A DNA stretch of 38,831 nt from a virus, in the IMG/VR virus record IMGVR_UViG_3300034682_000435, positions 1-38,831 of that record; one strand, written 5' to 3'. This document shows positions 3,001 through 38,831 of this stretch, in pieces (positions within the stretch are counted from its first letter, which is position 1; every line of letters starts with the position of its first letter). The translations under genes were made by a program, and so were the position numbers. The notes beneath the pieces were generated by a model, which searched no databases, was not told the origin of the DNA, and saw nothing but the letters and a program-made list of their open reading frames with translations.

Positions 3001-3076
3001 GGCCCCTTAGCTCAGTGGTTAGAGCAGGCGACTCATAATCGCTTGGTCGCTGGTTCAAGTCCAGCAGGGGCCACCA
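3001..3076 (+). tRNA. ileX: tRNA-Ile2 (anticodon CAU, expected to be modified to lysidine)
   Basis: A complete 76-nt cloverleaf with encoded CCA. The acceptor arms GGCCCCT and AGGGGCC pair, the anticodon loop is CTCATAA, and the T loop is TTCAAGT. The sequence matches my memory of E. coli ileX, a CAU tRNA whose C34 is converted to lysidine by TilS so that it reads AUA. It lies in the conserved rpoD-mug-ileX order. Its 3' half is the prophage integration target and is duplicated at 32937-32987. Confidence 0.95.
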
Positions 3077-30901: not shown

Positions 30902-31801
30902 ATGACTCAATTTAGCGCTTTCAACTATACACACAATAGAGATAAAGCCATCGCTAACTTAATCAACCTAATTGAAGGGATGACCTGTGACGGGAAACTA
31001 AGTGAAAAAGAAATGATTTTCCTTGATACGTGGCTGATGGAATCAGACGTTCTTTCCCAAAATTATTTCGTAAACTGCATCAGAAATAAAATAAGTGAAA
31101 TCCTTTCGGATGGTGTAGTTGAAAAAGCTGAATTAGACGAATTGAAAGACCTGCTCCATGAAATGCAACGCGGATTGATGGATACTCCTAACATAGACCT
31201 TTACTCAGCTGACTCTGACAAGCATTTGCTAGAGGGTCTATGTAAGGGGCTTGCTTCCGACTATCATTTGAGCGATGAAGAAATCAGCTATTTAAACTGG
31301 TTCTTATCTACAAATGCAGCTTTAAAAAGCAACTATCCCGGCAAACATCTTTACGAACTGGTTCAATCAATCCTGAGTGATGGGGTGATCACAGACGAAG
31401 AACGCACCAAATTATTACAAGAAATTACTGCTTTCACTGGCTCAAATATTTCTGAGGGTATTGTGGATGGATATTCCACAACATCACCTGTTGACCTAAT
31501 TGATGAGTTTAACCCTACAGATAGTAAAGTCTGTCTCACTGGTAAGTTTCTATGTGGCTCCCGTAGACAATGTGAAAGTGACCTTTTAAAGCTTGGCTGC
31601 CAAATTGTTGATCGTGTTACTCAAGATTTGGACTATCTAATTATTGGTGCCCTCAGCTCTAAGGATTGGAAATTTCAAAGCTTCGGAAGAAAGATAGAAC
31701 AGGCTATTGATTATCGTGACAATAAAGGAGTTCCGCTCAAAATCCTCAGTGAAGAACACTGGCAAACCTTAATGCGTGATAATAATTCTATATCTCAATA
31801 G
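30902..31801 (+). CDS. TerB-like repeat plus C-terminal BRCT domain protein, accessory cargo
   Basis: 299 aa. Residues 13-180 are all-helical, with four acidic turns of the form [C/S]-D-[G/Y]-x-[L/V/I]-x-x-x-E. Their Asp residues are D30, D70, D120 and D160, so two 40-residue repeats stand 90 apart, resembling TerB-like helical domains. Residues 208-292 are a BRCT domain like that of NAD-dependent DNA ligase (VCLTGKFLCGSRRQCESDLL, DLDYLIIG, SEEHWQTLM), with no ligase domains. The gene is AT-rich against its neighbours and lies 11 bases after cI and 9 before int. I infer lysogenic conversion or defence cargo; a DNA-repair or nuclease partner role is possible. AGGA is 9 bases upstream of ATG. 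Confidence 0.8.
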   Translation: MTQFSAFNYTHNRDKAIANLINLIEGMTCDGKLSEKEMIFLDTWLMESDVLSQNYFVNCIRNKISEILSDGVVEKAELDELKDLLHEMQRGLMDTPNIDLYSADSDKHLLEGLCKGLASDYHLSDEEISYLNWFLSTNAALKSNYPGKHLYELVQSILSDGVITDEERTKLLQEITAFTGSNISEGIVDGYSTTSPVDLIDEFNPTDSKVCLTGKFLCGSRRQCESDLLKLGCQIVDRVTQDLDYLIIGALSSKDWKFQSFGRKIEQAIDYRDNKGVPLKILSEEHWQTLMRDNNSISQ

Positions 31802-31810
31802 GCCTGCAGA

Positions 31811-32824
31811 ATGGCAGTAAGCAAATTAAGCAATGGAAAGTGGCAGGCTCAGGTCTTCCCCAACGGTAGGGATGGGCGGCGTATTCGTCGCCAATTCGCC
31901 ACCAAAGGGGAAGCCATGGCCTTTGAACGCCACATTAAGGATCAAGCACAGGATAAGCCTTGGTTAGGAGAGAAAGCAGATAAGCGACGGGTTACAGACC
32001 TTGTTGAAACTTGGTTCAATGCTCATGGAGTTACACTCTCTGATGGCCTCAAGCGTAAGGGGGCGATGGAGTTTGCCTGCTTCGCCATGGGCAACCCTCT
32101 TGCAACTGAATTTAACGCCAAGCTTTTTGCAACCTACCGTGAGCAACGTTTAAGCGGGAAAATTACACGTTCTGATCGGGTAAAAGCAGTGACACCCCGC
32201 ACCGTTAATCTTGAGCTGGCGTATTTCCGCGCCATGTTCAACGAACTGAAAAGGCTGGATGACTGGAGTGCGCCCAATCCGCTCGAAAACGTCCGGGAAT
32301 TTAAAATTGATGAGGCAGAGCTGGCCTGGCTCACAGTCGAAGAAGTCAAGCAACTGCTGGCAGAGTGTGAGAAAAGTAAAGCGGTAGATTTAGTAACCAT
32401 CGTCAAAATATGCCTTGCAACCGGCGCACGATGGGGCGAGGCGGAGTCACTAACAGGCAAGCAAATAAGCCCCGGCAAAATCACTTATATCAAAACCAAG
32501 GGCAAGAAAAACCGCGCCGTTCCAATAAGTGATGAGCTTTACGAAATACTCCCAAAAGTAAGAACATCAAAACCAGTCTTTACGGGGTGCTATTCTGCGT
32601 TTCGTGGGGCAATTAAGCGAGCGGGGATTGAGCTACCTGACGGGCAGCTGTCACACGTTCTACGGCACACATTTGCAAGCCACTTTATGATGCGCGGGGG
32701 TAACATTCTTGTACTGCAGCGTATCCTTGGACATACTGATATTAAGGTGACGATGCGCTATGCTCATTTCGCCCCAGACCATCTGACAGAAGCAGTGGAG
32801 TACAACCCCTTAAATCTGATTTGA
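31811..32824 (+). CDS. int: tyrosine integrase of prophage 1
   Basis: 337 aa, P2-type site-specific recombinase. The arm-binding N-terminus is MAVSKLSNGKWQAQVFPNGRDGRRIRRQF. Catalytic residues are R207 (GARWGEA), K232 region, H282-x-x-R285 (HVLRH), H308 (LGHTD) and nucleophile Y317 (MRYAHF). It sits beside attR and should recombine the 51-bp core in ileX. Intact, so the prophage may excise. Confidence 0.96.
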   Translation: MAVSKLSNGKWQAQVFPNGRDGRRIRRQFATKGEAMAFERHIKDQAQDKPWLGEKADKRRVTDLVETWFNAHGVTLSDGLKRKGAMEFACFAMGNPLATEFNAKLFATYREQRLSGKITRSDRVKAVTPRTVNLELAYFRAMFNELKRLDDWSAPNPLENVREFKIDEAELAWLTVEEVKQLLAECEKSKAVDLVTIVKICLATGARWGEAESLTGKQISPGKITYIKTKGKKNRAVPISDELYEILPKVRTSKPVFTGCYSAFRGAIKRAGIELPDGQLSHVLRHTFASHFMMRGGNILVLQRILGHTDIKVTMRYAHFAPDHLTEAVEYNPLNLI

Positions 32825-32936: not shown

Positions 32937-32987
32937 GACTCATAATCGCTTGGTCGCTGGTTCAAGTCCAGCAGGGGCCACCAAATT
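32937..32987. other. attR of prophage 1 / probable attL of prophage 2
   Basis: Exact 51-bp copy of 3030-3080 (ileX 3' half with CCA). The 5' half of the tRNA is absent here. Phage-type sequence continues on the right side, which suggests a tandem second prophage using the same site. Confidence 0.92.
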
Positions 32988-33010
32988 AAAGCAATAAATA
33001 CATGCACTTA

Positions 33011-33040
33011 GGCCACTCTCGAGAGTGGCCTTTTTGTTTT
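33011..33040 (+). terminator. rho-independent terminator after attR
   Basis: A perfect 10-bp inverted repeat GGCCACTCTC/GAGAGTGGCC (33011-33030), then T5. It occupies the same place relative to the tRNA core as the ileX terminator at 3103. Confidence 0.9.
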
Positions 33041-33050
33041 CGCCAGCACA

Positions 33051-33070
33051 AGTGTCGCAAAAGTGTCGCA
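33051..33070. promoter_or_regulatory. integrase arm-type repeats of prophage 2 (left arm)
   Basis: AGTGTCGCA at 33051-33059 and 33062-33070: two direct copies with the same 11-bp period as the TGGCAGCA pair of prophage 1, but a different sequence. Position relative to the core is equivalent. A matching pair should lie beyond the window, next to the second integrase. Confidence 0.6.
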
Positions 33071-33131
33071 AGAAGGTTTAGACCTGCCAAATTGCTCTGA
33101 GTTAGACATGACGTTCAGAAGTAGTTTTGGA

Positions 33132-33160
33132 ACAAAAAAGACTCAACTGCAAAAGTTGCT
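33132..33160 (-). terminator. possible terminator of the RT module
   Basis: On the minus strand a weak stem CAACT...AGTTG (33144-33158) is followed 4 bases later by T6. It is 16 bases below the RT stop. Confidence 0.45.
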
Positions 33161-33175
33161 ACGATGGCCCCTGAT

Positions 33176-33937
33176 TCACCTGAACAATTTTGCTTGGGCT
33201 GTGTTTATGCTACCAACGTATGATGCAATGCCTTTACGTTCATGGGGATTTTTGCTGGAAATAAATGCCTGTAAAAATTCAACGATTCTTTTTGACGTTA
33301 CACGTAGTGAGTTTTGGCTAAGCTCGAGGTTAAAAACGTTAACCATCAAGGAAGGAGGCTGGGTTTTGTTTTCATTGACGGTATAGCCGGATCTTCTTAT
33401 AGCTTCAAGAATAATATCAAAAGCATTCTCCAACTGACCAAGATCATCACTTGAAAGCAAAATGTCATCCATGAAAATGCTCACCGATACATGGCCTGAT
33501 TTGCTGACAGTATTGATGGTACTCCCACAAAATGATTGGTGAAAACATAAGCTGGCTAATATTGGTGACTGCGGATAACCGTATGGGATTACATGCTTTA
33601 ACCCATTACCATTGAGGTTTTTCACAGTCGATAGCCGGGCAATTTCTCTCGCCTTTACATATGGAATTAACCGCCCAAGCTCCCTTGTAACGCGGCTTTG
33701 GCTCGTAGCTCCAAAAAAATTGGATATATCAATCAGGCTAAAATATTTCTTTTTAATATGATAGTTAGCCGCAGCAACATGCCCACCTTCTCTGAGATGA
33801 AACATATAAAGCGGTGACTTCCATTTGTGTTTGATATAGGTGTGTATTTTTTGTCCTAAGTGATGTGTTTCGGCATCAGGAATGTAAACCCAACGATTTT
33901 CCTTAACCTCAAATTTATGTAGCCATGTTGGTTTCAT
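33176..33937 (-). CDS. small reverse transcriptase, probable defence-type RT
   Basis: A 253-aa RNA-templated DNA polymerase with fingers and palm only and no fused C-terminal enzyme. Visible motifs are FHLREGGHVAAANYHIKKKYF (RT2-like), motif A SLIDISNFFGATS with D70, motif B IPYGYPQSPILASLCF (118-133), motif C SIFMDDILLSSDD with catalytic D157-D158, and motif D GYTVNENKTQ (K191). Motif C is FMDD rather than the usual YxDD. I see no retron VTG motif. It resembles the UG/DRT and Abi groups, many of which block phages; the exact group cannot be assigned. The start has no Shine-Dalgarno and lies 23 bases inside the preceding small ORF, so translation is probably coupled. AT-rich. Confidence 0.88.
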   Translation of the reverse strand: MKPTWLHKFEVKENRWVYIPDAETHHLGQKIHTYIKHKWKSPLYMFHLREGGHVAAANYHIKKKYFSLIDISNFFGATSQSRVTRELGRLIPYVKAREIARLSTVKNLNGNGLKHVIPYGYPQSPILASLCFHQSFCGSTINTVSKSGHVSVSIFMDDILLSSDDLGQLENAFDIILEAIRRSGYTVNENKTQPPSLMVNVFNLELSQNSLRVTSKRIVEFLQAFISSKNPHERKGIASYVGSINTAQAKLFR

Positions 33938-34079
33938 TTGTACACGTCAAGTAGTTAGGGACTATGTTAAAGAGGCTCAGCACCTTTTCAACTAAAGTCC
34001 ACGACTCGTTGATAAAGGCCAAAACTACCGTGGTAGTTCCGAGCACTTTAACTAAGCCGATTTTATGTTGTTTAGTCAT
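33915..34079 (-). CDS. 54-aa hydrophobic small protein overlapping the RT start
   Basis: ATG at 34079, stop TAA at 33915-33917. The sequence starts MTKQHKIGLVKVLG, then TTTVVLAFINESWTLVEKVL, and ends TNMAT. Residues about 7-24 form a likely membrane helix and 30-45 a second amphipathic or hydrophobic helix. A GAGAG ribosome site lies about 9 bases upstream. It overlaps the RT start, so the two are probably co-translated. It could be a membrane-acting effector, or the coding appearance may be chance within a longer non-coding RNA. Confidence 0.55.
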   Translation of the reverse strand: MTKQHKIGLVKVLGTTTVVLAFINESWTLVEKVLSLFNIVPNYLTCTNETNMAT

Positions 34080-34322
34080 AAATCGTTCTCTCTATACAAT
34101 CCTGACGATTCTTAGCGCAAGCGCATAGCCCAAACTAAAAACGCGACGCCCCCTTAAGAAGCGTTAAGAAACCTTCAGCAACCCTCCGCGACGAGCGGCA
34201 GCTTAAAGCAGCTTGCAGCGTCGAGCGGCGACCATCGGCAAGTCGAATAACGACGAGTACAGAGAGGCCGGATATCCCGGCTAACGTCAGGAAAAGATAG
34301 ATTACACGGAGCATCAGATGCT
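34080..34322 (-). ncRNA. candidate structured non-coding RNA upstream of the RT
   Basis: A GC-rich island without an ORF between AT-rich flanks, directly upstream of the RT operon and on the same strand as read. Hairpins: AGCAT-CAG-ATGCT (34310-34322), GCCGG-GATAT-CCGGC (about 34267-34281) and GCGC-TT-GCGC (about 34115-34125). Repeated words occur, such as CGACGAGCGGC and CGTCGAGCGGC (34189-34230) and two TTAAGAA (34154-34170). Retrons and several DRT systems keep a template RNA in this place. The ends and the promoter are not determined. Confidence 0.5.
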
Positions 34323-34936
34323 TGAAACCACTTTAAGCTAATAGCAACTAAAAATCACGGAGATGTCTACTTTTCGATTTTTACAGTACCTCATCTTGGC
34401 TTTTTTGCTTGAAAACCACGCCAGCCCTGCCTTCACGTTTCCTGACTCTCCGACTATTTTTGTGTATTTTGTTCTTCCGGACTCACATGAAACACAAAAT
34501 ATCTTTGTTTATCTGTTAGTTATATTTTTCATTAGATCCTCCGCAGATCCTTTTCACTGAAAAAAACTGAAATTCTTTTCACGCTTTTCAGTTTGTACCT
34601 GACTGCAACGTCCTAGCAGTGGCGAGGGCTAACGGGGTCGTTTGTAAAAAATCCCGACTGAAAAAACTTTGCGATCCGAAAACCGCAGGCGGGTGCGGTG
34701 TAGTGCGATTTTTGTCTGCGGAAGATTTTTTTTGCCGCGCTGTGACGCGCCAGCGCCCCGCTGTGCGCACGATCTGTTTTAAGGGTGGCTCTGAGTGTCT
34801 GAAAAGGCTGAACGCGCCATAGCGCCGCTTGTTGCGCGTGGCGATATCCCTTTAAGGGGATAAGAAGAAAGATATCCCCTTCAGGGGGTAGGAGGCATAA
34901 AAAAACCCGCTTTCGCGGGTTATGTTCTGGACTGAT
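34323..34936. other. stretch without recognised gene between RT module and prophage remnant
   Basis: No convincing gene. A 65-codon plus-strand frame at 34363-34560 is hydrophobic but has no usable ribosome site. The right part (34560-34900) is GC-richer, with T-runs. Two look-alike hairpins, GATATCCC-TTTAA-GGGGATA (about 34841-34862) and ATATCCCC-TTCA-GGGGG (about 34871-34888), stand 30 bp apart, and a terminator follows. Confidence 0.5.
34895..34921 (-). terminator. terminator of the spike-remnant transcript
   Basis: Stem AACCCGC (34904-34910) / GCGGGTT (34915-34921), 4-base loop; on the minus strand followed by T6. It is 16 bases below the stop at 34937. Confidence 0.9.
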
Positions 34937-35772
34937 TTACTTGCCAATCACCGGGGAGTATTTGCCGCTCAGCGTGTCCGCTTTCGCTCCGGCGTTCCGG
35001 ATTGCTCCCGCATTGGTCGGCGTGCCCGTATTGCTGTGCGTGTGGCTTGCCGTTTGCTCTGCCAGTTCTTTCACCACGTCGAGCGTGTCGAGCATCAGCT
35101 GTGCCACGTTGATAGTGCCAGAGCCAATCCACACAACCGGGGCAATAATCTGCTGTTGTACTGCCGCCACGCTTTTACGTATCTGGCCAATTTTCTCGAT
35201 CAGGTCTTTACCCGTTGTGACTGTCTGGCTCCTGGCTATGTCTGTTTCATCATTGCCGCCGATACTCGCCACGCGGTTTTTTACTGCCTGGCTATAATCA
35301 CCCGTGCATACCTGCTGAATGGCTCCGGTCAGTAGTGTGGACGTGCCCAGCACGGTAATTTTATCCGTAGCCTTACCGTGGTTTCGCGGCTGACCAGCTC
35401 CCGCTGTTCCGAAGCGGCCTTAACAACCCGCGCCATTGAGGTTTCACTGATCGTCTGGTCTGTCGGCCTCACCCAGTCACCCGCCAGGGTGACGCGCTGA
35501 GACACTTCCGCACGCTGCTGCTGCAGCTGCTCGCCAGGCTGGATATCCGGTAAGTTGGTTCCCTCCGGTACGGTCTGCCGCACAAAGGGTTTACCCGGCC
35601 TTCCGCCAGTAAAAGCAATTTCAACCAGCGTCCCTTCAGGTGGAAACTGGTACATCCCGGAATCGTTACCCGCCATAGGAACCGGCAGAGGCATAGCTGA
35701 GTAAGCAGGCGTGTCTTTATCCGGGTTCCAGACTGCCACGCCGCCAGTCAGCGGTAGACCAGCCCAAGACAA
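34937..35772 (-). pseudogene. baseplate spike-like protein, truncated at 5' end and frameshifted
   Basis: The upstream part (35772 to about 35375) has an OB-fold-like stretch FPPEGTLVEIAFTGGRPGKPFVRQTVPEG as in gp5/gpV spikes. The downstream part (to 34937) contains ASHTHSNTG, an H-x-H tip motif like that of gpV. The two lie in different frames. Adding one base near GTAAGG (35371-35376) restores V-K-A-T-D-K-I-T-V-L-G across the join, so a 1-base deletion broke the gene. The 5' end is missing: it begins at a deletion junction near 35760. Family assignment is from these motifs. Confidence 0.75.
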
Positions 35773-35812
35773 ACACCAGCGAAACCAATACCAGCCACAG
35801 GCCGTTTGTCAT
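35717..35812 (-). pseudogene. start of a spanin-like gene cut at a deletion junction
   Basis: 31 codons beginning MTNGLWLVLVSLVFVLGW, a membrane anchor like that of Rz-type spanins. The frame then runs out of frame into the spike gene and stops at 35717. Its ATG overlaps the stop of the M15 peptidase (TGATG), the usual endolysin-Rz coupling. From about 35760 the DNA belongs to the spike gene. Confidence 0.6.
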
Positions 35813-36132
35813 CAGCGCATCCCGTTATGTTCCAGGCTGAAGTGATTACCAGCCGGACGGGATTTGAAACGCCCGCCCCACGTTCCGCCCAGCGATTCCC
35901 AGTATTCACCCAGCGGCAGATAATCAGCCGTGTCCGTTTTGTACTGGCCATTCACGTACAGGTTAAAATCCACGGCCAGACGCTGTGTGTGCAGACTGTT
36001 GGTGATACCGCTGCCTTTTTTAGCGTTCAGCGCCGCCTGTTCCGGCGTACGGTACGCCTCGCCAAAAGTCAGGCGATAGCCATGCTCTTCAGCCCAGTGG
36101 ATCAGAATGGCCACCATCACGGTAACCCTCAC
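35812..36132 (-). pseudogene. M15-type peptidoglycan peptidase (endolysin), N-terminus missing
   Basis: 106 codons. GYRLTFGEAYRTPEQA, GSGITNSLHTQRLAVDFNLYVNG and RPAGNHFSLEHNG hold the M15/VanY-like metal and catalytic residues (H in SLHTQR, D in AVDF, H in NHFSLEH). The frame begins VTVMVA at a GTG within the end of cII, so about 8-10 N-terminal residues are missing. The catalytic core is otherwise complete; a short active form from GTG 36132 cannot be ruled out. Confidence 0.72.
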
Positions 36133-36632
36133 ATCATGCTACTGGCGCTGTTAGTCACGATATCGACGGCAGCAGCAAGAACCGGCGCAGACTGGAGGCG
36201 GCTTTCAACGGTGTAAGCCAGAACGGAAAGGGAACGGATGGCATCACGGGCACGATCAAGAATTTGTGTGCAGCGTGCGGCGGTCATGTGCTCAGTTGAA
36301 ACGGCTTCCCCAGCGATTGCCCTCACATTGGCGGCGGCACTTAACGCGCAAAACTGCATGTTGGCTTCAATGGCGTTATTGACAGGAACGGACGGGAGGC
36401 TGTTAATCTGCCCCAGCATTCTATCCAATAGCCGCGAATCTTCGGTGTAATCGGTGATAGCCAAAAGCTCATCGCAGGTCAGGCGGTGCGGTTGAACCGG
36501 ATTTAACTTATTGCGGAGGATCTGCGGACGCATACCAACGGCAGCAGCTACATCTTCCAGATTGTGCGCTAGCGCAAACGCTCAGCAAGCAGCATCAAAA
36601 TGAGCATGTTTAGAAGTCTGATAATCAAACAT
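36129..36632 (-). pseudogene. CII-type regulator with a nonsense codon at position 17
   Basis: Starting at ATG 36632 the frame reads MFDYQTSKHAHFDAAC, then TGA (36582-36584), then AFALAHNLEDVAAAVGMRPQILRNKL... The homologue at 29394-29903 has ...EACRAFALRHN here, so an Arg codon (CGA to TGA) was lost. A restart at the internal ATG 36533 would lack the first helix. The C-terminus abuts the truncated endolysin, marking a large deletion. Confidence 0.85.
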
Positions 36633-36662
36633 TGTTAGCTCCTCCCTAATCCGTAGGATGAA

Positions 36663-36884
36663 TTACGCGTTAAGCGAAACATCGCATTCGCTTAACGCCA
36701 TTACGGTTAAGGTGACCATGTTCACTTCAACCAGCCCTTTTTTCTGTGCACCTTTAGGCTTGATAGGGAGTTTTCCGTAGGAAATCAAATTCTCAGCAGT
36801 ACTTCGCGACATGCCAGTACGGCGGCAATATGCATCAAGTGGAATGTATGGATCGGGGATCACGATTGTAATGTTGGGACGCAT
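36663..36884 (-). CDS. Cox/Apl-type protein of prophage 2
   Basis: 73 aa from ATG 36884 (MRPNITIVIPDPYIPLDAYCRRTGMSRSTAENLISYGKLP), with AGGAG upstream; the longer frame to 36986 crosses the control region. It shares the winged-helix DAYCRRTG...LPI core with the protein at 29938 but differs elsewhere, so its operator is probably different. Confidence 0.85.
   Translation of the reverse strand: MRPNITIVIPDPYIPLDAYCRRTGMSRSTAENLISYGKLPIKPKGAQKKGLVEVNMVTLTVMALSECDVSLNA
36667..36698. promoter_or_regulatory. 12-bp perfect inverted repeat within the end of cox
   Basis: GCGTTAAGCGAA (36667-36678) and TTCGCTTAACGC (36687-36698), 8-base spacer. There is no T-run, so it is not a classic terminator. 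The half-site TTAAGCGA also occurs in the switch dyad at 36971-36983, about 300 bp away. Possible distal CI operator. Confidence 0.5.
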
Positions 36885-36903
36885 AATGCAAACTCCTCTT
36901 GCT

Positions 36904-37012
36904 GTGGATACGCCAATATCCACTGTTATTAACCTATACTCGTAAAAAGCTACAACAAGGAGAGTCCAGATCGCATTAAGCGACAAATAAATCGATTTAT
37001 CGCATTTTGCGA
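36904..37012. promoter_or_regulatory. lysis-lysogeny switch region of prophage 2
   Basis: Between cox and cI are two dyads of one type, TCGC-ATTAA-GCGA (36971-36983) and TCGC-ATTTT-GCGA (37000-37012), 29 bp apart or close to three helical turns. There is also GTGGATA...TATCCAC (36904-36923). The two TCGC dyads are probable CI operators. The repeats differ from those of prophage 1. Promoters could not be assigned with confidence. Confidence 0.6.
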
Positions 37013-37027
37013 AAACCTGACTAAATT

Positions 37028-37609
37028 ATGGGCAAATTCTCTTACGGACAAATCAGCCACAGCAATGAAGTACTCGACAGAGTGATTAATGCTTATGGCT
37101 TTACGTCTAAGCTGATGCTTGCCGATCACTTTGGAATGGCATCGAGTAGCCTGGCTGGACGCTACAAACGAGGCGGCTTTCCCGCTGACATGGTAGTTAG
37201 GTGTGTAGCTGAAACTGGCGCATCGTTAGAATGGCTTGCTACTGGTCAAGACAGGAAATTTGACGACGAAGAACTCGACATTATAAAAATGCCTCGTCGA
37301 AAAATCGTTGATGGCCTTCTTTACGATGCTGGCAGGTACATGTTGGATAAGGTCTCATTCCTCCCGGGAGTCCCTTTACCTAAGTCCCCAATCTGCGTCC
37401 AGGAAGGTAATAGCCAATTTATCGTGGATACCTTATTTACTGAGGTTTATGACGATCAGTGGTTGGTTGAAATTGAAGGTAAAATAAGCATTTGCACACT
37501 TACCCGCATCCCAATTAAGAAAGTCAGAGTAAGTGGCGTCGGCATGGCCTTTGATTGTGCAATAGAAGATATAAAAATTCTTTGTAGGGTTGTATTAACA
37601 ATAAGATAA
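37028..37609 (+). CDS. CI-type repressor of prophage 2
   Basis: 193 aa. The helix-turn-helix is near residues 27-50 (KLMLADHFGMASSSLAGRYKRGGFP), then VVRCVAETGASLEWLATGQ and a C-terminal domain DDQWLVEIEGKISICTLTRIPI. Same family as the repressor at 30276 but clearly diverged. Intact, so the remnant may still confer immunity. No strong Shine-Dalgarno. Confidence 0.9.
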   Translation: MGKFSYGQISHSNEVLDRVINAYGFTSKLMLADHFGMASSSLAGRYKRGGFPADMVVRCVAETGASLEWLATGQDRKFDDEELDIIKMPRRKIVDGLLYDAGRYMLDKVSFLPGVPLPKSPICVQEGNSQFIVDTLFTEVYDDQWLVEIEGKISICTLTRIPIKKVRVSGVGMAFDCAIEDIKILCRVVLTIR

Positions 37610-37625
37610 GCATAAGGATTTGAAG

Positions 37626-38192
37626 ATGATTGACTACAAAACAGCATCAAAAGACCAACTCAAAGCGGAGATGAAACGCTTAGCTGGCGTTGTATCTGAC
37701 ACGCCCTTTGGTACAAAAAAAGAATTCTTTCACCTCCCTGAAATTTTGAACTCGGGCGAACGTCCGGTGGCCATTGCCAGTGGCATGATGGACGGCAACA
37801 CCTGGCTCATCACACTGACAAATAAACGCGTAATTTTCCTTGATAAGGGCATGATTTTTGGTGTTAAGCAGGTTGACATCAACCTCAACAACATTGTGAG
37901 CGTAGGCGGCAAGACGGGGCTTATGTTTGGTGAAATTATGATTTCTACTAGCGGCCAAAACTACACAATCAAAAATGTCATGAAAGGCTCAGTTATACCC
38001 TTCACAAATTTAGTGAACGAAACAAAAAACTCTCTGAATGCTCCTGCCTCGCAACAACAAGAACCGACCAAAGACACTCAATCATTCGATGATCAAATGG
38101 CGAAAATTGAACGTCTTGCAAAAATGAAAGAAGAAGGGATTCTTACAGAAGAAGAATTCCAGCAGCAGAAAAAATTCATTTTGAATGGTTAA
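37626..38192 (+). CDS. PH-like plus SHOCT domain protein, accessory cargo
   Basis: 188 aa from ATG 37626 (MIDYKTASKDQLKAEMKRL), with AAGGA 7 bases upstream; a TTG two codons earlier is less likely. Residues about 35-130 look like a bacterial PH (YokE-like) domain (ERPVAIASGMMDGNTWLITLTNKRVIFLDKGMIFGVKQVDINLNNI). Residues about 155-187 are a SHOCT motif (IERLAKMKEEGILTEEEFQQQKKFIL). Function unknown. It lies between cI and int, where prophage 1 has the BRCT gene. Confidence 0.85.
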   Translation: MIDYKTASKDQLKAEMKRLAGVVSDTPFGTKKEFFHLPEILNSGERPVAIASGMMDGNTWLITLTNKRVIFLDKGMIFGVKQVDINLNNIVSVGGKTGLMFGEIMISTSGQNYTIKNVMKGSVIPFTNLVNETKNSLNAPASQQQEPTKDTQSFDDQMAKIERLAKMKEEGILTEEEFQQQKKFILNG

Positions 38193-38195
38193 TTT

Positions 38196-38831
38196 ATGTC
38201 TGTAAGAAAGTTAGCTTACGGCCAACGGGTTGCTGATTTTTACACTGTAGACAGAACTGATGGTAAAGACGGCAAGCGGGTTCGTAGGAAGTTTGTCACT
38301 AAAGGCGAAGCGCTGGCGTTTGAAAATTACACACTGCAAAAATTTGAGGACACGCCCTGGTTAGGCCAGGGCAAAGACAAACGTCGTCTTTCGGATATAG
38401 TCCATCTATGGTTTGAGCGCCATGGAATAACTTTGCGTGACGGCGAGAAACGTAAAAGCAACATGCTCTGGGCAGATCTGTGCATAGGGTCGCCCCCGGC
38501 TACTGAATTCTTAGCCCAGCTTTTCACCGCGTACCGGGCAAAAAGGCTCGATGGCCATTTTGCCCGTACTAAGCGCGTTACTCAGGTTTCGCCTCGCACC
38601 ATGAACTTAGAGCACGCGTATTTCCTCGCTGTGTTCAATGAATTGAAACGACTTGGCGAATGGGAAGCGCCAAACCCGCTAGATAACATTCGACAGTTCA
38701 GAACAGAAGAAAGTGAGATGGTCTTTCTTACTGGAGAGCAGATTGACAGTCTCTTAGAAGAAAGCCACCACAGCTCTGCTAAAGATTTGGAGATGATTGT
38801 CAGAATTTGCCTGGCTACTAGTGCTCGCTGA
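38196..38831 (+). pseudogene. tyrosine integrase of prophage 2, stops before the catalytic domain
   Basis: 211 codons aligned end to end with residues 1-207 of the integrase at 31811 (DGKRVRRKFVTKGEALAFE, PRTMNLEHAYFLAVFNELKRL). It ends ICLATSAR-TGA where the other has ICLATGARWGEAESL, so a TGG-to-TGA change at the Trp just after the first catalytic Arg is the simplest reading. The stop is the last codon of the window. The H-x-x-R, H and Tyr boxes are absent from what can be seen. Confidence 0.8.

Follow-up and report, generated by a model that had tools for sequence, protein, structure and literature searches.

Does the noncoding island beside a reverse transcriptase (RT) gene in a viral genome provide the template RNA of that enzyme, and to which kind of system do the two belong? 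We addressed this in the 38,831-nucleotide (nt) stretch of IMG/VR record IMGVR_UViG_3300034682_000435 (hereafter the window), in which a reading made from the sequence alone had placed a candidate template RNA at 34080-34322. Comparison of homologous loci strongly supports the island as the putative template of the neighbouring RT, in the form of a retron noncoding RNA (ncRNA). We estimate a probability of about 80% that the locus is a complete retron from a lineage without an assigned type, carried as P2-like prophage cargo and composed of the ncRNA, a single-helix membrane microprotein and the RT, in which the RT, ncRNA and complementary DNA (cDNA) would silence the membrane protein. The RNA, microprotein and RT all lie on the minus strand.

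Anatomy and covariation of the noncoding RNA

The island stands out in composition, as the sequence-only reading had noted. GC content is 0.54-0.57 at 34100-34299, compared to 0.36-0.44 (33800-34099) and 0.31-0.43 (34350-34649) in the flanks. Its noncoding nature was also confirmed, because a single long frame lies inside it (34135-34314 minus, 59 amino acids (aa)) and this frame is not conserved in relatives; frame changes break it, and it was rejected as a reading frame. The extent of the element had to be corrected. The conserved RNA covers 193 nt from inverted repeat a1 to inverted repeat a2 (34100-34292), with repeats, hairpins and 3′ end conserved across homologous loci, and a small coding open reading frame (ORF; 33915-34079) sits between this RNA and the RT.

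In the window, a1 (TCCTGACG, 34285-34292) is complementary to a2 (CGTCAGGA, 34100-34107) and is followed by a conserved TTAGC box (34280-34284), of which the G at 34281 is the presumed 2′-OH branch guanosine. Enterobacterales RNAs begin with CCTGACG-TTAGC and finish with TAAGA..CGTCAGG, and the small ORF starts 20-21 nt further on. We searched 29 distinct loci for a helix beside a TAG(G/C) box that ends 8-35 nt ahead of the small ORF. A helix of at least 7 base pairs (bp) adjoining a (T/A)TAG(G/C) box was found in 24 of the 29 (8 bp in the window), with a distance of 17-26 nt between the end of a2 and the microprotein ATG. Single-locus P values against dinucleotide shuffles ranged from 0 to 0.03 in these 24 loci (0.013 for the window); the pairing in L059 is borderline.

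The two arms covary across lineages. Their sequences differ (CACTCGACG/CGTCGAGTG, CCCCAGC/GCTGGGG, TCCGGCG/CGCCGGA and GATTTCAGC/GCTGAAGTC), and across 18 lineages 91% of positions are paired, whereas 20,000 permutations averaged 75% and never exceeded 86%. Because the a2 sites came from the search itself, this permutation result partly reflects site choice, and dinucleotide shuffles running the same search served as the control. Double changes A-U/G-C and U-A/C-G were observed at pairs 4, 5, 6, 7 and 8, and the covariation spans Gamma- and Alphaproteobacteria. Covariation over homologous loci was the test that the sequence-only reading had proposed for its candidate RNA, and the candidate is supported by it.

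RNAalifold independently recovered a1/a2 together with msr hairpin 1 (GCCGG-loop-CCGGC, 34267-34281), msr hairpin 2 (GTCG-loop-CGAC, 34242-34254) and a 3′ hairpin, and a covariation score computed from pair counts lay above all 500 shuffles. Hairpin 1 carries pairing-preserving changes, for example in L080, and hairpin 2 shows U-A/C-G double changes. The core of the 3′ hairpin (GCGCTTGCGC, 34115-34124) lies within a near-invariant TTAGTTTGGGCTATGCGCTTGCGCTAAGA and does not vary across Enterobacterales loci. These account for two of the three clean hairpins reported earlier; the third (34310-34322) lies outside the conserved RNA, is missing in L004, the RT of which is 91% identical, and was discarded. 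An Rfam scan returned a tRNA as its sole match and nothing at the retron locus, and a promoter scan showed no sigma-70-like site directly upstream of a1.

A further predicted helix joins the msr linker X (CTCTCTGTAC, 34256-34265) to X′ (GTATAGAGAG, 34087-34096) in the ribosome-binding region of the small ORF. It covers this region and crosses a1/a2, which makes it a pseudoknot. Counterparts in other loci are CTCTCCGTAC/GTATGGAGAG (L018), TCCGTAGAA/TTCTACGGA (L017), CCTCTGTAC/GTACAGAGG (L035) and CCTTTCTC/GAGAAAGG (L105). The changes are compensatory, with U-A/C-G and C-G/G-C double changes in alignment A6 (msd excised), and the summed helix score is 139.9, whereas 20,000 permutations gave 108.6 on average and 134.4 at most. 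Pairing across the ribosome-binding site and the fixed short distance from a2 to the ATG would also suit an RNA that is never copied and instead regulates the small ORF/RT mRNA as its leader, for example in the manner of a type I antitoxin. This explanation leaves three things unaccounted for, namely the presence of a1/a2 and a TTAG box in retron arrangement, the clade of the RT and the variable array between conserved ends, and we consider it very unlikely.

A degenerate tandem array in the putative msd

The sequence between hairpin 2 and the 3′ hairpin is variable and consists mostly of a degenerate direct tandem array, the putative msd core (34142-34240, approximate boundaries from lag-10 autocorrelation and unit listing). 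The period-10 units in the window read GGTCGCCGCT CGACGCTGCA AGCTGCTTTA AGCTGCCGCT CGTCGCGGAG GGTTGCTGAA GGTTTCTTAA CGCTTCTTAA. The repeated word TTAAGAA, which had been noticed from the sequence alone, occurs twice exactly 10 nt apart and belongs to this array. At lag 10, the window shows an identity of 0.56 (z 6.4), a level that none of 500 shuffles reached over all lags, and the combined z of 23 loci at this lag is 10.5. The period is likewise 10 in L080 and L081, 9 in L085 (TGGGACTCC) and L102, and mixed elsewhere. Length gaps between the ncRNAs of near relatives correspond to whole units (18 nt for L035/L085, 20 for L086/L103, 10 for L081/L084 and 9 for L017/L027), with the exception of L102/L104, where the gap of 11 nt is no whole number of 9-nt units. 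Tandem Repeats Finder does not report an array in the window region because the degenerate repeats fall below its threshold. Lag analysis revealed no such array in the alphaproteobacterial RNAs, which are shorter.

Tandem repeats of 9-10 nt next to a membrane partner recall the 9-nt repeats and SLATT protein of DRT10 (PMC12632851). In a system of the defence-associated RT (DRT) type, whether DRT2-, DRT9- or DRT10-like, protein priming or template jumping would produce concatenated or tandem-repeat cDNA, and this cDNA or its coding content would act. Here, the RNA itself already holds many repeat units, a1/a2 and the TTAG box are retron anatomy, and the RT groups with retrons by tree and by Foldseek. 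With assumed template boundaries, stop-free endless concatemer frames arose for 0.09 of the boundary choices in the window, compared to 0.31 in shuffles; DRT2 was rejected on this lack of enrichment. As for DRT10, its UG17 RT type does not appear in the 25 best-scoring PADLOC families listed, and the small protein that would stand in the place of SLATT has no Pfam, PHROG or PADLOC match. Altogether, we judge a DRT-type system improbable. The sequence-only reading had described the island's position as that of the ncRNA in DRT2-like and retron loci, of which the retron part stands and the DRT2 part does not. The retron model fits because the a1/a2 repeats, TTAG box, hairpins, retron-clade RT and top Foldseek matches, all of them retron RTs, agree.

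Reverse transcriptase, microprotein and genomic setting

The RT (253 aa, 33176-33937) has its catalytic D70 and FMDD motif intact, and the catalytic aspartates are invariant in 22 relatives. In a 68-row tree, the family forms one clade (100/100) that groups with the 20 retron RTs included (100/99), and the 20 RTs of other kinds lie outside this group; one long RT (L140) is placed among the retrons. The AlphaFold2 model of the RT (mean predicted local distance difference test score, pLDDT, of 94.7) returned retron RTs as all 13 of its best Foldseek matches in the PDB, with Ec86 first.

The best PADLOC model for the RT is RT_VI (77 bits, 3e-22), and type VI retrons in the sense of Mestre 2020 are described in PMC8541194 as combining the RT with two further proteins, one DNA-binding and one small and auxiliary. 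Both points would speak for type VI. On the same model, type VI members score 240-320 bits and other retron types 190-230, and ten sampled retron RTs reach ~240-530 bits on their own best model. Gene neighbours, which include phage late genes and plasmid genes, vary from locus to locus among those seen, and no conserved DNA-binding partner adjoins the RT in the loci inspected. The tree also puts the clade outside the type VI branch. Type VI membership was rejected on the PADLOC score and tree position, and we give it next to no credence. In the tree, the clade joins the sampled known retrons to the exclusion of other RTs; it fits no PADLOC retron type and is a so far untyped branch.

Several observations weigh against the interpretation as a whole. 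The RT is short (~250 aa) and sits on a long stem (1.5 changes per site). ATAAC replaces the TTAG/ATAG box in three alphaproteobacteria-like loci (L012, L063 and L065), in L065 beside an a1/a2 helix of 16 bp, and the box in L101 reads AAAGG instead of TTAGG, though a1/a2 is 12 bp there. The same search rule gives no clear a1/a2 in L012, L063 and L106, and the X/X′ helix is not seen in the alphaproteobacterial loci. Finally, the predicted msd DNA forms no single long hairpin, unlike usual retrons, in which such a hairpin is a common but not a defining feature. The msd of Eco2, for instance, is one long DNA hairpin (PMC12405507). As a separate observation, the priming nucleotide may differ in L012, L063, L065 and L101, as ATAAC or AAAGG stands there at the place of the presumed branch-G box.

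The small ORF (33915-34079) encodes a 54-aa protein with a single transmembrane (TM) helix (MTKQHKIGLVKVLGTTTVVLAFINESWTLVEKVLSLFNIVPNYLTCTNETNMAT), the proposed effector. In every distinct locus screened, a single-helix membrane protein of 39-80 aa is encoded between ncRNA and RT, mostly overlapping the RT start, and in most of these proteins the hydrophobic helix has an NY-like motif close to its end. Pairwise nonsynonymous divergence of ~0.06 compared to ~0.34 for synonymous sites demonstrates purifying selection. The protein has no match above chance in Pfam, PHROGs or PADLOC. By analogy with other retrons, we infer that it is a toxin, the effector of a defence or toxin-antitoxin retron.

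We scanned viral, phage, plasmid and genome collections and found RT relatives from 100% down to ~30% identity. Their carriers include Citrobacter, Pantoea, Klebsiella P2-like phages, and rhizobial and Roseomonas plasmids. These RTs are rare, occurring in 3 of 392 genomes sampled from the family of the Citrobacter genome and in 6 of 398 from its phylum, and the E. coli genomes searched gave no near match spanning the locus.

A first P2-like prophage of the window sits in tRNA-Met (tRNA 3001-3076, integrase 31811-32824), with an att-like tRNA-Met fragment near 32945-32983. The retron lies beyond this fragment, followed by the remains of a second P2-like prophage; this remnant (32945-38831) is tandem to the first, with truncated late genes and its own integrase at 38196. 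In Klebsiella P2-like phages, the retron is found near the genome end. In L035 (reverse strand, 1480-2253 in reverse-complement coordinates), the retron relative directly adjoins an intact tRNA-Met with no prophage between, and its msd is an array of GGGACTCC. Two further window genes may be cargo. The first (37620-38192) is flanked by a phage repressor-like gene and the second-prophage integrase; its product of 190 aa has a C-terminal stretch (IERLAKMKEEGILTEEEFQQQKKFIL) that we take to resemble a short oligomerisation domain. The second (30902-31801), beside the first-prophage integrase, encodes a 299-aa protein with a presumably BRCT-like C-terminal stretch. P2-like phages carry defence hotspots, which in published work lie next to cos (PMC9122126), whereas the window retron lies beside att.

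Proposed mechanism and comparison with known systems

Known retrons prime from a guanosine beside a1/a2 (PMC8989520), and the retron mechanism and its a1/a2 repeats have been described (PMC8989520, PMC12405507). By this model, the RT would bind the msr hairpins and prime from the 2′-OH of the TTAG guanosine, held beside the a1/a2 stem, so that the repeat-rich msd would be copied into single-stranded DNA. Retron complexes keep toxic effectors in check until triggered by a phage (PMC12548924), and by analogy the RT-ncRNA-cDNA complex should keep the membrane protein silent. The msr linker might also cover the microprotein ribosome-binding site. A phage that disturbs the RNA or cDNA would cause the membrane protein to be made or released, and the freed protein would damage the inner membrane and abort infection. 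The locus is most likely a tripartite defence or toxin-antitoxin retron, with RT, ncRNA and cDNA restraining a membrane toxin.

In DRT10, a cDNA of 9-nt repeats is paired with the membrane protein SLATT, and multivalent binding has been proposed (PMC12632851). The repeats observed here hint that a retron might work in a similar way, as they may offer many binding sites for the membrane protein. A more specific version is possible but doubtful: a new retron type whose cDNA would be a multivalent ligand with one microprotein per 9-10-nt repeat, such that repeat number would set the amount of toxin held and the ncRNA pseudoknot would gate toxin translation.

Three features look new, namely the conserved microprotein between ncRNA and RT, the repeat-array msd and the msr pairing with the microprotein ribosome-binding site. 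Our literature search, the scope of which left out Mestre 2020 and the 2024 retron census, did not turn up a repeat msd or a single-helix microprotein in any retron. The family adds a distinct clade beside the classified retrons and brings to light an effector candidate overlooked as too small for annotation in the records seen. It combines a tandem-repeat template with an RNA element over the effector ribosome-binding site, and its very small size makes restraint of an effector by multicopy single-stranded DNA (msDNA) testable. Another possible benefit is a natural retron scaffold with tolerance for widely differing msd sequences.

Among known systems, Retron-Eco1/Ec86 (type II-A) resembles the locus in its a1/a2 repeats, two msr hairpins and upstream ncRNA, and Ec86 is the best PDB match of the window RT by sequence and by fold. 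It also has a TTAGC box with a branch G; the window has the same box with a presumed branch G. It differs in its nucleoside deoxyribosyltransferase-like effector, hairpin msd and longer RT, and has neither tandem repeats nor a TM microprotein. Type VI (Mestre 2020, as described in PMC8541194) shares the best PADLOC RT model, a small auxiliary gene and occurrence in P2-like phages; the window RT scores far below its members, lacks the conserved DNA-binding gene and falls outside the branch. Retron-Ec48 (type IV) has a membrane-protein effector, as proposed here, but this effector has two TM helices and the RT belongs to another clade, with the type IV representative L055 elsewhere in the tree. 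DRT10 (UG17) with SLATT is comparable in that a repeat-rich cDNA of 9-nt period is paired with a membrane protein (PMC12632851). DRT10 iterates one short template and is protein-primed, whereas the ncRNA of the present locus is of retron type and itself encodes many repeat units.
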